Assembly (NCBI GenBank): GCA_009838915.1
Contig: VXQT01000011.1
Coordinates: 1 to 64,000 of the forward strand
Direction of reading: 5' to 3'
DNA from: Chloroflexota bacterium
GTDB lineage: Bacteria; Chloroflexota; Dehalococcoidia; Bin125
DNA length: 64,000 nt
Shown here: positions 49,263 through 60,726 of the stretch, in pieces
How positions within the stretch are numbered: position 1 is the stretch's first letter
Layout: each line of letters opens with the position of its first letter
Position numbers and translations under genes: made by a program
The notes under the pieces: model-generated
Seen by the model: the letters and a program-made list of their open reading frames with translations, nothing else
Database searches by the model: none
Told to the model about the DNA's origin: nothing

Positions 49263-49906
49263 GCGTGTACCCGCGCAATCTCGTCGGCGAAGGCGCGGCA
49301 GGCGGCCTCGGGATCAGGCTGGCAGACGACGGCCGAGAGGACGGCGACGCCGTATGCACCGGCTGCGAGCACGTCGGCAACTCGCTCGATGGTGATGCTG
49401 CCAATGCCGATCACCGGCAGATCGACCGCGCTGCAGATCTCAGCGAATCGTTCGAGACCGAGCATTGGCGCGGCACGGTAGCCTTTTGAGGTGGTGCCGA
49501 AGACGGGGCCGACGCCGAGGTAGTCGACTGGTTGTTTCGCTACCTTTACCGCTTCCTCGACTGAGTTGGCGGTGCCGCCGATGATCGCTTCGGGGCCGAG
49601 AATCTCTCGGGCGACGTAGGGCGGCAGATCGTCGCGCCCGAGGTGGACGGCGGTCGCGCCCACGGCGGCGGCGACATCGACGCGGTCGTCGATCAGCATC
49701 GTCGCGCCGTGTTCGCGGCAAGCGAGGCTCATCAGCGCGGCGACGCGGATCATCTCCTTGGTCGAAACCGGCCGCTTTTCGCGGTACTGGATCGTGTCTG
49801 CGCCGCCGGCCGACGCGGAGGCCGCGAGTTCGACGTGTGAGAAGCGTGTCTGCAGCACCTCGTCGGTGATCACGTGTAGGCGGCCGATGGACTTCTGTTC
49901 AGTCAC
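49259..49906 (-). CDS. thiE: Thiamine-phosphate synthase ThiE
   Basis: 215 residues. Couples HMP-diphosphate and thiazole phosphate to thiamine monophosphate. Motifs: LHVITDEVLQ, ADTIQYREKRPVSTKE, TMLIDDRVDVAAAVGATAVHLGR (in two parts here), VDYLGVGPVFGTTSKGYR and PVIGIGSITIERV. All phosphate-loop features are present, so this copy is the better ThiE candidate. It overlaps thiD by 8 bases and thiO1 by 4. Confidence 0.9.
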   Translation of the reverse strand: MTEQKSIGRLHVITDEVLQTRFSHVELAASASAGGADTIQYREKRPVSTKEMIRVAALMSLACREHGATMLIDDRVDVAAAVGATAVHLGRDDLPPYVAREILGPEAIIGGTANSVEEAVKVAKQPVDYLGVGPVFGTTSKGYRAAPMLGLERFAEICSAVDLPVIGIGSITIERVADVLAAGAYGVAVLSAVVCQPDPEAACRAFADEIARVHA

Positions 49907-50690
49907 TACGCGTCATCCAGAAGTGGTCGGTAGGGCCGATCCCGTGTCCGATGTCCAGCCCGCCGCGAATCGCTTCCGTCACATACTGCTTGGCGCTGCC
50001 GATGGCGTCCTGGAGCTCAACGCCCTGTGAGAGCCGGGCGGCGATCGCCGAGGCGTAGGTGCAGCCGGTGCCGTGAGTGTGGCGTTGGTCGATCCATTCG
50101 CCCTCAAACACCTCGGTCGCTTCCGACGTGACCAGCACGTCGGTCGCCGGCGCGCCCTCGAGGTGACCGCCCTTGACCAACGCCGCCAGTGCCCCGGCCT
50201 CGACGAGCATCTCGCCTGCGTGTTGCGCGTCGTCGACGGTCTTGATCGAAAGTCCGGTCAAGGCCTCGGCTTCGTGGACATTGGGCGTGACGAGGGTTGC
50301 CAGCGGCAGCAACTTGCGGCGCAGGGTCGTTGCCGCGTCCTCCGCGAGCAGGGCGAAGCCGGTCTTGGAGATCATCACTGGATCGACGACGACGAATCCG
50401 GGGCGTCGGCTCACGAGTTCGTCCGCGACCAGCTCGATCGTCTCCGAGCCGCCCAGCATGCCTGTCTTCACGCCGGCGATGTCAAGGTCGTCGAAGACGG
50501 AAGCGATCTGTTCGCGCACGGCGCTGAGCGGCAGCGGCCATGCGCCATGCACGCCCAAGGTGTTCTGCGCGGTGACGGCCGTGATCACGGTGGCGGCGTA
50601 GGCGCCGTTGGCCGTGATCGACTTGAGGTCGGCCTGGATGCCCGCTCCGGCGGAAGAGTCGGATCCTGCGATGGTCAGCACGACGCGCAC
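49899..50690 (-). CDS. thiD: Hydroxymethylpyrimidine (phosphate) kinase ThiD
   Basis: 263 residues. First gene of the operon. ThiD phosphorylates HMP and HMP-P. Motifs: LTIAGSDSSAGAGIQADLKS, TVITAVTAQNTLGV, VKTGMLGG, VVVDPVMISKTG, VTPNVHEAEALTG and the C-terminal HTHGTGCTYASAIAA (anion hole and catalytic Asp-type region of the ribokinase family). Start ATG at 50690, about 50 bases downstream of the TPP riboswitch. Confidence 0.93.
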   Translation of the reverse strand: MRVVLTIAGSDSSAGAGIQADLKSITANGAYAATVITAVTAQNTLGVHGAWPLPLSAVREQIASVFDDLDIAGVKTGMLGGSETIELVADELVSRRPGFVVVDPVMISKTGFALLAEDAATTLRRKLLPLATLVTPNVHEAEALTGLSIKTVDDAQHAGEMLVEAGALAALVKGGHLEGAPATDVLVTSEATEVFEGEWIDQRHTHGTGCTYASAIAARLSQGVELQDAIGSAKQYVTEAIRGGLDIGHGIGPTDHFWMTRSD

Positions 50691-50737
50691 AGCCGCATCC
50701 TTCGATGCTGCGAGTGGTCTGCGGTCGGACTGAGAGG

Positions 50738-50838
50738 CTCGTCGCTCCCTGCGCCGGCATTATCCGGATCAGGTTCGGCGGGTGTGTTCTCAGGCCCGGA
50801 CTCCGTCACCTCGACGGTCGGACCACCCCGGCTTTGTT
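50738..50838 (-). promoter_or_regulatory. TPP (thiamine pyrophosphate) riboswitch
   Basis: On the minus strand the conserved aptamer pieces appear in order: a GGGGTGG 5' part, CTGAGA (positions 50788-50793 on the plus strand as TCTCAG), and CCTGATCCGGATAATGCCGG followed by GCAGGGA (50746-50773). A variable extra stem lies before CTGAGA. Binding of thiamine pyrophosphate should switch off expression of the 12-gene thi operon starting with thiD. Boundaries are approximate. Confidence 0.93.
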
Positions 50839-50890
50839 GTTACTCAGGTTAACACAGGGAGAGGCTGCCTAGGCTCTCAGGCATGGGGAG

Positions 50891-50940
50891 CCCCCCTCTG
50901 CCTTCGGCATCTCCCCCCGCTTACGCGGGGGGAGAGGGAA
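50891..50940. repeat. GC-rich palindromic intergenic repeat, copy A
   Basis: Pattern: six C, CTCTGCC-TTC-GGCAT (small hairpin), then CTCCCCCCGC-TTA-GCGGGGGGAG (larger hairpin), then GGGA. Related copies are at 57201, 57649 and 59043, always between genes, here between the riboswitch and thiolase end. It may act as a two-way terminator or be a dispersed REP-like element. Confidence 0.75.
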
Positions 50941-57195: not shown

Positions 57196-57200
57196 GGGTG

Positions 57201-57244
57201 CCCCCCTCTGCCTTCGGCATCTCCCCCCGCGAAGCGGGGGGAGA
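57201..57244. repeat. GC-rich palindromic intergenic repeat, copy B
   Basis: Same pattern as copy A: CTCTGCC-TTC-GGCAT hairpin, then CTCCCCCCGC-GAA-GCGGGGGGAG. It lies between the membrane-protein start (57195) and the stop of the next gene. Confidence 0.75.
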
Positions 57245-57258
57245 ATCAAGCGAGTGGG

Positions 57259-57600: not shown

Positions 57601-57648
57601 CGCCTCACTCCTGTGTGTGCTGGGTGGGATCAGGGTATCAGCGTGCGG

Positions 57649-57757
57649 ACCCCCCTCTGTCACTCCGTGACATCTCCCCCCGCGAAGCGCGGGGGGAGAG
57701 GGGAGTTACGACTACCACGTGACATCTCCTTCGCGGAGCGAGGGAGAGGGGTGTGGG
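57649..57757. repeat. GC-rich palindromic intergenic repeats, copies C and C2
   Basis: Copy C (57649-57705): CTCTGTCA-CTCC-TGACAT hairpin, then CTCCCCCCGCGAAGCGCGGGGGGAG. Copy C2 (57718-57757) is shorter and decayed: CATCTCCTTCGCGGAGCGAGGGAGAGG. They occupy the gap between the Ig-like gene and the selenoprotein gene. Confidence 0.7.
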
Positions 57758-57805
57758 AACGCGGATGCGATATCGTCGAGCAGGAGCGTTTGAGGGAGTT
57801 TTCCA

Positions 57806-59035
57806 ATGGTCCGCACGTCCGATATGCACCCCGACATGGCGAAGAATCTGCTCAGTCTGCCCTTGCCGGAGATTGAGCCGCAGCCGTGGATTGCGACTCG
57901 ACCGCTGGCGGAGACGACGGTGGCGATCGTGACGACCGCGGGGATGCACGCGCACGACGACCGGCCGTTCAATCCGGGCTCGGTCGAGTACCGGCTGATT
58001 CCCGGCGACATAGACTTCGCCGACCTGCGCATGTCGCACCTGTCGGTCAACTTCGACCGTTCCGGCTTCCAGCAGGACATCAACACCGTGTTCCCGCTGG
58101 AGCGGCTGCGCGAGCTGACGGATCAGGGCGTGATCGCGGGAGTGAGCCGCTATCACTACTCGTTCATGGGCGCCCAGCCCGAGCCGACGCGGCTGGAACA
58201 GACGGGCGAGGAGATCGGCCGGCTGCTGGCCGAGGACGGCGTCACCGCTGCCTTCCTGACACCCGTTTGACCATTCTGCACGCGCGCCGTGTGCGCGCTG
58301 AGCCACTACATCGAGCGCGGCAGCGAGGGCCGCGTCGCGACGACCGGAGTCTCGCTGATCCGCGAGCACGCTGAGGGGATGAAGCCGCCGCGATCGCTGT
58401 TTGTCCCGTTCCCGCTGGGCCGTCCGATGGGATCGCCGGACGAGCCCGACTTCCAGCGCGACGTGCTGCTTTCGGCGCTGCGGCTGCTGGAGTCGGCGAC
58501 CGAGACCGCGCTGGCGGACTACCCGCACGACGCGCCGACGTCGGGCGACGATCCGTGGGCCTGCGCGGTGGCGCTGGCTCCGCCGGAGCCGGCCAACGAG
58601 ACCGAGGCGCTGCGCGACCAACTGGTCGCGGAGATTCGTCAACTCGCGCCCTGGCACGCGGAGTCGCTGAAGCGGCGCGGACGGTCGACGGTCGGCATCT
58701 CGGGGGCGTCGTTGGCGCAGGTGGAAGAGCTGGCCACGCTGGTGGCCGACTTCGCGACCGGTGCGGAGCCGTCTGACGGCGAGATCGACTGGAACCACCC
58801 GATGCCGGTGCGGCTCAAGTTCGCCTCGGACGACCTGCGGGCGTTCTACCACGAGGCGGCCACGGCGCAGCCGGGGGCCAGCTATCCGACCGACGCCGAC
58901 CTCAACGACTGGCTGTTCAATCGGACCCTGCTGGGCACGGTGCTGCGCCAGATCGTGGGTCGGATGCGGGAGAGCGAGGATCGTCGAGTGGCCGGGCTCG
59001 TAATCGGGATGATCCCGGCGGGGTTCGCTCGGTAA
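57806..59035 (+). CDS. GrdB-family selenoprotein with in-frame UGA (glycine/sarcosine/betaine reductase B-like)
   Basis: 409 residues if the TGA at 58268-58270 is read as selenocysteine; an ordinary caller would split it into 57806-58270 and 58289-59035. Both parts are in the same frame and join as LTPV-U155-PFC158-TRAV, i.e. a U-x-x-C redox motif, as in GrdB selenoprotein subunits of glycine reductase. The first part has AIVTTAGMHAHDDRPFNPGS, SHLSVNFDRSGFQQDIN, VFPLERLRELTDQGVI and RYHYSFMGA; the second RSLFVPFPLGRPMGSPDEPD, all typical of the GrdB-like family. The start is supported by GAGGGAG 8 bases upstream. The partner and the substrate are not evident; the grd operon itself is absent here. 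Confidence 0.85.
58268..58298 (+). promoter_or_regulatory. UGA codon and SECIS-like hairpin
   Basis: After TGA (58268-58270) comes GCGCGC (58282-58287), loop CGTGT (58288-58292) and GCGCGC (58293-58298), a perfect 6-base stem. The loop begins 17 bases after the TGA and has G as its second base followed by T, as expected of bacterial SECIS loops, which lie within about 16-37 bases of the UGA. GC-rich coding sequence can form such stems by chance, so it is supportive only. Confidence 0.5.
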
Positions 59036-59042
59036 CGACCAT

Positions 59043-59134
59043 GCCCCCCTCTGCCTACGGCATCTCCCCCCGCTTCGCGGGGGGAGAAGGGAATCGATAA
59101 CGTCGCACCTTTCCCCGCGAAGTGGGAGAGGGAA
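59043..59134. repeat. GC-rich palindromic intergenic repeats, copies D and D2
   Basis: Copy D (59043-59092): CTCTGCC-TAC-GGCAT, then CTCCCCCCGC-TTC-GCGGGGGGAG. Copy D2 (59102-59134) is a decayed short one: TTTCCCCGCGAAGTGGGAGAGG. They sit between the selenoprotein gene and the convergent hydrolase gene. Confidence 0.7.
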
Positions 59135-59139
59135 GCCGG

Positions 59140-60726
59140 TCATGTGGGCGTACGTAGGGGATCGTCCTCGTCGAAGGGGTTGGTGAATCGGGTCCCCACA
59201 GTGCTGAGGTCGCCTTGCAAGTCGTCGCCAGGCGGAGCGAGGCCGAATCCGAGCCAGGCGATGATGCTGGTGAATGCGCCGAGCGATTCGCGCTCGGAGA
59301 AGGTGCAGTGGCCCGCGCGGCGGATTGGTTGGACGACCAGGTTCGCGTCGTTGCCATGGTCGGCGAGTAGTTTCTGGTAGTCGCGCGTGAGATGGATCGG
59401 CGTGAAGAGGTCGCCGGTAGTGGTCATCGTGAGCAGGGGGACATTAAGTTCCCCGCTGGGAAGTCCAATGCCGGGGTCGCTGCGGCGTACAGGGTCCGAG
59501 GCGACGCGAATTACATCGGCGTTGAGCCGGTCCAGGTCGACGCCGGCGGCGGGGTCGGCTGAGTAGACGTGATGCCTGGTATCGGTGGGTGGTTGATGCC
59601 CTGAAACCTCGACCACGGATCCCGGAGCGAGCGGTCCCCGGTCGATGATGTCGGGCCAGAGCACCGCGCCGAGCGCAAACGAGATGTTCCACTGTTGGCG
59701 GAGGCCCTCGTCGAAGCCCCAGCGCTCGCCGCCGGTGAAGTCCTGGATCAGCGCAGCAAACTGCTCTCCGGACGGGGTGAGCCGGAGGCCCGACTCGTCG
59801 GCCGAGCCCAGGGCCGAGCCCCAGTCGATCATCCCGGCGACATCGAGCCGCTGCGGTTCGTAGCCGATCAGGTGATGGGCGAGGGCATGCCAGGCGACTA
59901 GATAGTCGACGACCCAGACATTGCCCATGGCGGGACAGAACGCGAGGGCTGCCGCGATCTCGTCCGGAAACTCCTGCGCCATGAGTTGCGCGGTCGCGCC
60001 GCCCATCGATCCGCCCGCGATGAACGTGCGGCTGGGAGGTCTTGCAAGCTCGGCGACGCGGTCCTTGACGCGAAGCAGGTCGTCGACACCGACGCCTGGT
60101 ACGTAGCCGTTGGCGCGGTAAGTCGAGGTTGCCCAGCCGAAGCCCTGTCCAATGATGACGTCGCGGGCGGGGATGTCGTCGAATGTCAGCCGGTCGCTGT
60201 AGCCCGTGCCCTCGTCGTTGAGGCCCCGAAAGCCATGCGCCCATAGCAGCAGTTCGCCGTTCCACTGATCGGGCAGCTCGATCCGGTAGCCGGCGCCGTC
60301 AATCTCGCCGTAATCGACGCGTGCGCCGGGGATCGGGTCGAAGACCGGGTCCTGGAGTTCATAGTCGCCGGCGGGCAGATCAGGAACCAGCACTCGGCGC
60401 TCGATCGGCGGCTCCATCGGCGCCCGCTGCGCTAGCTGCGCTTGCTGATCCGTCTGATCCTGCCGCGCAGCCGGCGATGTGTCCGCTTGTTGTTCGGTCG
60501 GCTGCGCCTGATCCTGCTGCGACTCGGAGGCAACCGGTTCAGGGTCGGACTCCAGCTGCGGCGGTGGGTCGGATTGCGGCTGAGGCTCCACCGCAGCCTC
60601 ATTTGGCTCGTCTTCAGCCGCGCAGCCGACCAATACGGCAGCGAACAACCCGCCGCCAGCGACGCCGAGTCGACGGAGCAGGTCGCGCCGTCCGAGTCTG
60701 CGCTGGAGCGCGTTCCTGAGTGTCAT
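59140..60726 (-). CDS. Tat-exported lipoprotein alpha/beta hydrolase
   Basis: 528 residues from the ATG at 60726. N-terminus: RRDLLRRLGVAGGGLFAAVLVGC, with a twin-arginine-type motif and a lipobox cysteine, so it is probably exported folded and lipid-anchored. A Gln/Glu/Pro-rich linker follows (about 40-105). The hydrolase part has GELLLWAHGFRG (oxyanion loop), the nucleophile elbow GGSMGGATAQ, and AGHCTF near the end with the likely catalytic His. It resembles tannase/feruloyl-esterase-type or large lipases. Substrate unknown. Convergent with the selenoprotein gene. Confidence 0.75.
   Translation of the reverse strand: MTLRNALQRRLGRRDLLRRLGVAGGGLFAAVLVGCAAEDEPNEAAVEPQPQSDPPPQLESDPEPVASESQQDQAQPTEQQADTSPAARQDQTDQQAQLAQRAPMEPPIERRVLVPDLPAGDYELQDPVFDPIPGARVDYGEIDGAGYRIELPDQWNGELLLWAHGFRGLNDEGTGYSDRLTFDDIPARDVIIGQGFGWATSTYRANGYVPGVGVDDLLRVKDRVAELARPPSRTFIAGGSMGGATAQLMAQEFPDEIAAALAFCPAMGNVWVVDYLVAWHALAHHLIGYEPQRLDVAGMIDWGSALGSADESGLRLTPSGEQFAALIQDFTGGERWGFDEGLRQQWNISFALGAVLWPDIIDRGPLAPGSVVEVSGHQPPTDTRHHVYSADPAAGVDLDRLNADVIRVASDPVRRSDPGIGLPSGELNVPLLTMTTTGDLFTPIHLTRDYQKLLADHGNDANLVVQPIRRAGHCTFSERESLGAFTSIIAWLGFGLAPPGDDLQGDLSTVGTRFTNPFDEDDPLRTPT

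Follow-up and report, generated by a model that had tools for sequence, protein, structure and literature searches.

A PrdB-like selenoprotein gene with an in-frame TGA and an additional C-terminal domain in a Dehalococcoidia bacterium

Described relatives and the new locus

The biochemistry known for PrdB and GrdB comes from anaerobic fermenters of amino acids in which a pyruvoyl partner is present, and a carbonyl-bearing subunit is part of both glycine and D-proline reductase. In these enzymes attack of the selenolate on the substrate leads to a selenenylsulfide, which a dithiol recycles; in D-proline reductase the selenolate acts on a substrate bound to the pyruvoyl group of another subunit (PMC10298544). 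Carbon-heteroatom cleavage outside amino acids has been proposed for FarB of Cloacibacillus porcorum, encoded in a fluoroacetate reductase operon (PMC10838667), a proposal which, by analogy, suggests that the GrdB family is flexible in its choice of substrate. The Grd systems of other Dehalococcoidia consist of GrdB with GrdE (PMC9751293). According to the passages on "PrdB" in two marine selenoprotein surveys, which date from 2005 and 2008, this family is abundant in marine bacteria, with 42 UxxC selenoproteins counted in the Sargasso Sea (PMC1088965) and 235 in the GOS data (PMC2398784).

The gene considered here lies in a 64,000-nucleotide stretch of a Chloroflexota genome (Dehalococcoidia, Bin125; contig VXQT01000011.1, positions 1 to 64,000), which we call the window. 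The genome is 2.87 Mb in size and 95% complete. The following features are discussed below:

57806..59035, plus strand: whole selenoprotein gene, 409 residues with Sec155; ATG at 57806, TAA at 59033-59035
57792..57798, plus strand: Shine-Dalgarno-like GAGGGAG, 7 nt upstream of the ATG, read from the sequence
57893..58504, plus strand: core domain, residues 30-233 (PrdB / C-terminal half of GrdB); TIGR04483 E 7e-31, PF07355 37 bits
58268..58270, plus strand: TGA read as selenocysteine 155; TGA in 46/46 homologues, Cys in 14 no-stop homologues, Sec machinery in the genome
58277..58279, plus strand: Cys158, partner in the U-x-x-C redox motif, invariant in two alignments (A2, A3)
58282..58298, plus strand: bacterial SECIS-like hairpin; stem 58282-58287/58293-58298, 6 bp, loop CGTGT
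58523..59032, plus strand: C-terminal extra domain, residues ~240-409, predicted helical, without known family

Several other elements were observed in the window. An antisense open frame of 501 aa (57638-59143, minus strand) overlaps the selenoprotein gene and was interpreted as a shadow frame in GC-rich coding DNA. An intergenic palindromic repeat, CATCTCCCCCCGC..GCGGGGGGAGA, is dispersed in the window (50890-50940, 57200-57250, 57666-57696, 59043-59093), occurs on both flanks of the selenoprotein gene and may represent terminators or a small mobile repeat. A TPP riboswitch (59 bits, above the gathering score) is located at 50729-50840 on the minus strand, upstream of a thiD-like gene (49899-50690, minus strand).

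The in-frame TGA and the selenocysteine reading

The original prediction, made from the sequence alone, started from two open frames with exactly one TGA between them, and the TGA at 58268-58270 is indeed the sole internal stop of frame 57806-59035, at residue 155 in the context LTPV-U-PFC-TRAV. The split-frame pattern alone is no evidence, because 40 places in the GC-rich window exhibit two frames of at least 150 codons separated by one in-frame stop, and the hairpin region of the window sequence alone has an ordinary folding energy compared to shuffles (z = 0.3). Since neither the single TGA nor the hairpin beats chance alone, the case rests on comparison, and that for the hairpin on covariation. 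Support above chance comes from a single family (NCBIfam TIGR04483, residues 30-233, E 7e-31) that spans both sides of the TGA, in agreement with the earlier claim of family-like flanking sequence, and further from the conservation of the TGA and the covariation of the hairpin.

The family protein is present in 43 of 100 genomes of relatives, with exactly one TGA in nearly every match that spans position 155, and relatives of the window protein were found in 102 of 400 Chloroflexota genomes, again with one in-frame TGA in nearly all matches. The aligned codon is TGA in all 46 distinct homologues (from ~30% to 97% identity, one Desulfosarcina among them), as well as in three Firmicutes PrdB genes and in one Photobacterium relative carried on plasmids. 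The 14 no-stop homologues read all have Cys at this codon: TGC or TGT in each of the 12 fetched Chloroflexota relatives, and likewise a Cys codon in two plasmid-borne homologues from Alphaproteobacteria. Both forms occur in one genus, with TGA in locus L105 and TGC in L086 (the same gene as L104), while the protein around the site is identical (LTAG-U-PLCHRTVVAIQREIE versus LTAG-C-PLCHRTVVAIQREIE). Among the full-length two-domain members sampled, no Cys form was seen. Thus alignment with Cys homologues at residue 155, the check proposed originally, gave Cys or TGA in all sequences read and never an unrelated residue; the suggested U-x-x-C motif is borne out by the invariance of U/C155 and C158 in the alignments.

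Full-length orthologues (83-97% identity) have nearly the same start and end points as the window gene, and the dN/dS ratios against 13 near orthologues are 0.04-0.17 upstream of the TGA and 0.04-0.11 downstream, hence the downstream part is under protein-level selection. Could the TGA nevertheless be a true stop, or a sequencing error, in a dead gene? Single-stop split frames are common in this GC-rich window, but the TGA is conserved in independent assemblies down to ~30% protein identity, a dead gene would have drifted past the TGA instead of retaining such low ratios, and the hairpin covaries; we regard a pseudogene as extremely improbable.

The predicted GCGCGC hairpin 11 bases past the TGA was located at 58282-58298, at exactly that distance, as a perfect GCGCGC-CGTGT-GCGCGC. 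Across 33 distinct sequences the 6-pair stem is formed in 89% of cells (66% in shuffles) and exhibits 47 two-sided changes (11 in shuffles), with compensatory changes in 5 of the 6 pairs. The covariation score is 0.627, compared to 0.188 for shuffles, which do not keep the relatedness of the sequences, and 0.05 to 0.16 for controls with the partner slid, which do. RNAalifold, unaided, predicted the same six pairs. On average, Sec members keep 5.25 of the 6 pairs and Cys members 3.08 (p 3e-7, kinship not corrected). A paralogue in the same genome (G000:C22:227857-229086; L060 6858-8087), two-domain and 48% identical to the window protein, likewise contains a TGA, and its hairpin, GGGTACC-GTC-GGTACCC, is perfect too but differs in sequence.

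The genome search for selA, selB, selC and selD, also proposed originally, revealed all four: a tRNA-Sec (70.8 bits, anticodon TCA), SelA (528 bits), SelB (348 bits, joined) and SelD (350 bits). The selD gene (L013; G000:C24:22895-23836) exhibits an in-frame TGA at the apparent catalytic position (CGG-U-GSK), and SelD of this genome is probably itself a selenoprotein. Of the 43 genomes with the gene, 37 have a strong tRNA-Sec match (>60 bits), compared with 27 of the 57 without it (Fisher p 6e-5, kinship not corrected). Most of the six genomes with the gene and without such a match are incomplete; one of them, G045, is 96% complete with 7% contamination. A reassignment of TGA to Trp, or read-through by a near-cognate tRNA, would be indistinguishable from selenocysteine by the open frame alone. 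However, TGA is the terminal stop of 25 of the 40 window genes, which argues against general reassignment, the no-stop homologues read all have Cys and none Trp, and tRNA-Sec and SelA, SelB and SelD are encoded in the genome, so that the chance of such a reading appears negligible. The TGA/Cys column, the covarying hairpin and the Sec machinery together uphold the selenocysteine reading, and the comparison of sequences makes it almost certain that SelB-mediated insertion takes place at residue 155 via the hairpin 11 nt past the UGA.

Domains, partner subunits and genomic context

The best family match of the core is PrdB (TIGR04483), with 107.4 bits against a cut-off of 300; true PrdBs used as control proteins scored 310 and 400 in the same search. 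The GRDB superfamily (PF07355) is matched with 37.3 bits (gathering cut-off 22) in residues 23-152 only, and the GrdB-type models are aligned in their second half only (positions ~211-427). The original label "GrdB-like" can be narrowed, as the best match, PrdB, corresponds to the C-terminal half of GrdB only. Judged by these profiles, the window protein is neither GrdB nor PrdB in the strict sense, because only the C-terminal half of GrdB is matched and the PrdB score is sub-threshold. Searches with the window protein revealed nothing among PDB sequences and no relative on the viral contigs searched. True PrdBs (L080 3423-4136 and L084 2920-3645) show weak matches to the UGSC selenoprotein family around Sec (E 5e-4 and 1e-5), hinting at a distant sequence kinship between PrdB and that family.

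The C-terminal ~170 aa form an additional domain that is missing from both GrdB and PrdB and gave no match by profile in Pfam, NCBIfam or PDB sequences; conserved E, G, D, E, W and T columns extend over 14 divergent members. A tree of the cores places the 17 two-domain rows, all Sec and all from Chloroflexota, in one group (support 100/99), apart from true PrdB (100/99) and from the one-domain relatives. Two-domain members also occur outside the window's class (loci L098-L102).

The core structure was predicted with AlphaFold2 from an alignment of near orthologues only. The core model (pLDDT 86.6, pTM 0.88) is of the alpha/beta Rossmann-like type, with Sec155 in the loop that joins a beta-strand to the next helix. 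A Foldseek search with this model yielded no match under E 0.001, and the best structural likeness, to LacI/solute-binding-type folds, reached a Z-score of only 8.5, which may reflect merely the common Rossmann-like arrangement. For the C-terminal domain the prediction was poor, a set of low-confidence helices, because only near orthologues were present in the alignment.

Earlier searches for GrdE/PrdA and GrdA were uninformative, as no control genome matched, and were repeated with records that hold these genes. The PrdA/GrdE model (PF09338) then had no match in four genomes of the group (G000, G005, G010, G017) and was found in all 3 control records, while the GrdA model (PF04723) had none in the window genome and three relatives and found the known genes in the control records. 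There is thus good evidence at the sequence level that grd and prd systems are absent from the genome, well founded because the latter is 95% complete and three relatives were searched as well; the claims that a grd operon is missing and that the gene is a stand-alone member hold, with neither GrdA nor GrdE/PrdA found in the genome and no conserved operon around it. An apparent stand-alone prdB in Peptoclostridium was rejected, as an unlisted PrdA-type gene lies directly upstream.

The neighbors of the window gene encode Ldh_2, an IspA/DUF3159-like membrane protein, a small protein, an alpha/beta hydrolase and a CoA-ligase pair, and this neighborhood is largely retained in another genus (L069), mostly not co-directional. 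In relatives, the group of the paralogue mentioned above adjoins clpS-type (ClpS) and recQ-type (RecQ) genes, and other family copies adjoin genes for a biotin-carboxylase-type enzyme, panB/panC, RF-1 or Usp. The analysis of neighbors, which differ between subgroups, did not reveal any conserved operon or common pathway around the family genes, nor prdA, prdD or a racemase. Between three and five family copies are present in several genomes of the genus, partly as tandems; G011 has three in a row. In several species two or three divergent two-domain copies stand in tandem (L061 6479-11327; L062; L063; L064; L070; L071), an arrangement suggesting, from sequence, a diversification of substrates.

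Might the protein then be a reductase of D-proline, or of a similar cyclic amine, whose pyruvoyl subunit is too divergent to be detected? PrdB is the best family match, but the score of 107 bits falls far from the cut-off of 300 and from the 310 and 400 of true PrdBs, these are set apart in the tree with full support, the PrdA/GrdE model has no match in the four group genomes searched and matches three control records, and prdA, prdD and a racemase are missing from the neighborhood. We consider this identity very improbable.

Proposed reaction and comparison with known systems

The locus is best explained, with good probability, as a selenoprotein gene for a two-domain, thiol-recycled selenolate reductase. 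SelB and Sec-tRNA-Sec would bind the hairpin past the UGA and place selenocysteine at residue 155 of the core domain; its selenolate, together with Cys158, would attack an electrophilic substrate, and Cys158 would resolve this adduct into a selenenylsulfide, with regeneration by a thioredoxin-like dithiol. A redox role of this kind for Sec155/Cys158 is likely by analogy with the PrdB/GrdB precedent and from the invariant motif, and the family match, the invariant U/C155 and C158 and the geometry of the model are consistent with it. For the substrate, there is about an even chance that it is a small molecule with a carbon-heteroatom bond to be cleaved reductively, as in the D-proline, glycine and proposed fluoroacetate reductases.

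A serious rival, to which we assign a substantial but smaller probability, is that the same selenoprotein acts as a general thiol-disulfide or peroxide oxidoreductase in stress defence or thiol homeostasis. Selenoproteins of the thioredoxin-, glutaredoxin- and Prx-like types carry UxxC as well (PMC1088965, PMC2398784), and a stand-alone, operon-free gene fits a housekeeping redox role. As the genome encodes a haem-copper oxidase, the organism probably respires oxygen and can probably live with it, which also suits such a function. On the other hand, no thioredoxin fold is evident in the Rossmann-like core model, the kin by sequence are substrate-specific amino-acid reductases, and the divergence of the extra copies (46-51% identity to the window protein) points to different substrates.

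Returning to the thiol-recycled reductase, the enzyme would work without the pyruvoyl subunit (PrdA/GrdE) and GrdA, because none was found in the genome, and as no carbonyl-bearing subunit was found, the chemistry of glycine and D-proline reductases is not simply transferable. Either the chemistry differs from that of D-proline reductase, or the C-terminal domain takes over the part of the pyruvoyl subunit. We tentatively propose an enzyme independent of PrdA/GrdE and GrdA, with substrate binding or dimerisation possibly supplied by the C-terminal domain. It is rather unlikely that the two-domain proteins are self-sufficient carbon-heteroatom reductases in which this domain replaces the pyruvoyl subunit and whose copies have diverged to different small molecules; if so, multiple copies in probably aerobic Chloroflexota would reduce, e.g., halogenated, sulfur or nitrogen compounds.

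That none of the sampled two-domain members has exchanged the costly selenocysteine for Cys suggests that selenium chemistry matters for the reaction. Gene finders cut such a gene in two or drop half of it, so it is easy to overlook a conserved selenoenzyme that several of these bacteria have in multiple copies. PrdB-like proteins are among the commoner selenoproteins in the ocean surveys (PMC1088965, PMC2398784), and a probable aerobe that has the enzyme and lacks the partner makes the real substrate of PrdB-like selenoproteins testable on one protein.

Compared with PrdB of D-proline reductase, residues 30-233 align over nearly the whole TIGR04483 model and Sec is found in UxxC, but the window protein comprises 409 aa against ~240, its motif context is LTPV-U-PFC instead of (L/M/F)TAG-U-GTC, and the genome lacks PrdA. 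With GrdB/GrdF/GrdH (glycine/sarcosine/betaine) it shares the C-terminal half with the Sec region and a PF07355 score over the gathering value; unlike GrdB (~430 aa) it lacks the N-terminal half, GrdA and GrdE are absent from the genome, and its score for the TIGR01918 subfamily, 49.8, is below the cut-off of 65.45. FarB is likewise a GrdB-family selenoprotein, but its operon comprises FarE (GrdE-type), a transporter and a radical SAM protein (PMC10838667), none of which accompanies the window gene. Two alphaproteobacterial proteins annotated as "glycine/sarcosine/betaine reductase selenoprotein B family protein" (WP_207415257.1, WP_035710215.1) share the stand-alone PrdB-like core, also without adjoining grd or prd genes, and differ in having Cys for Sec, ~300 aa, a far tree branch and no such C-terminal domain. 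The marine "PrdB" proteins share the PF07355/PrdB-type core, UxxC and Sec alternating with Cys homologues; compared by description, the survey passages on them mention neither a C-terminal extra domain nor a Chloroflexota clade (PMC1088965, PMC2398784), and among open-licence papers no description of the two-domain clade was found. The window protein, with 409 aa and a conserved C-terminal domain, differs in this respect from marine PrdB-like proteins with a single core domain. Stand-alone UxxC PrdB-like marine selenoproteins are thus already established, and what is new is the two-domain Chloroflexota clade.
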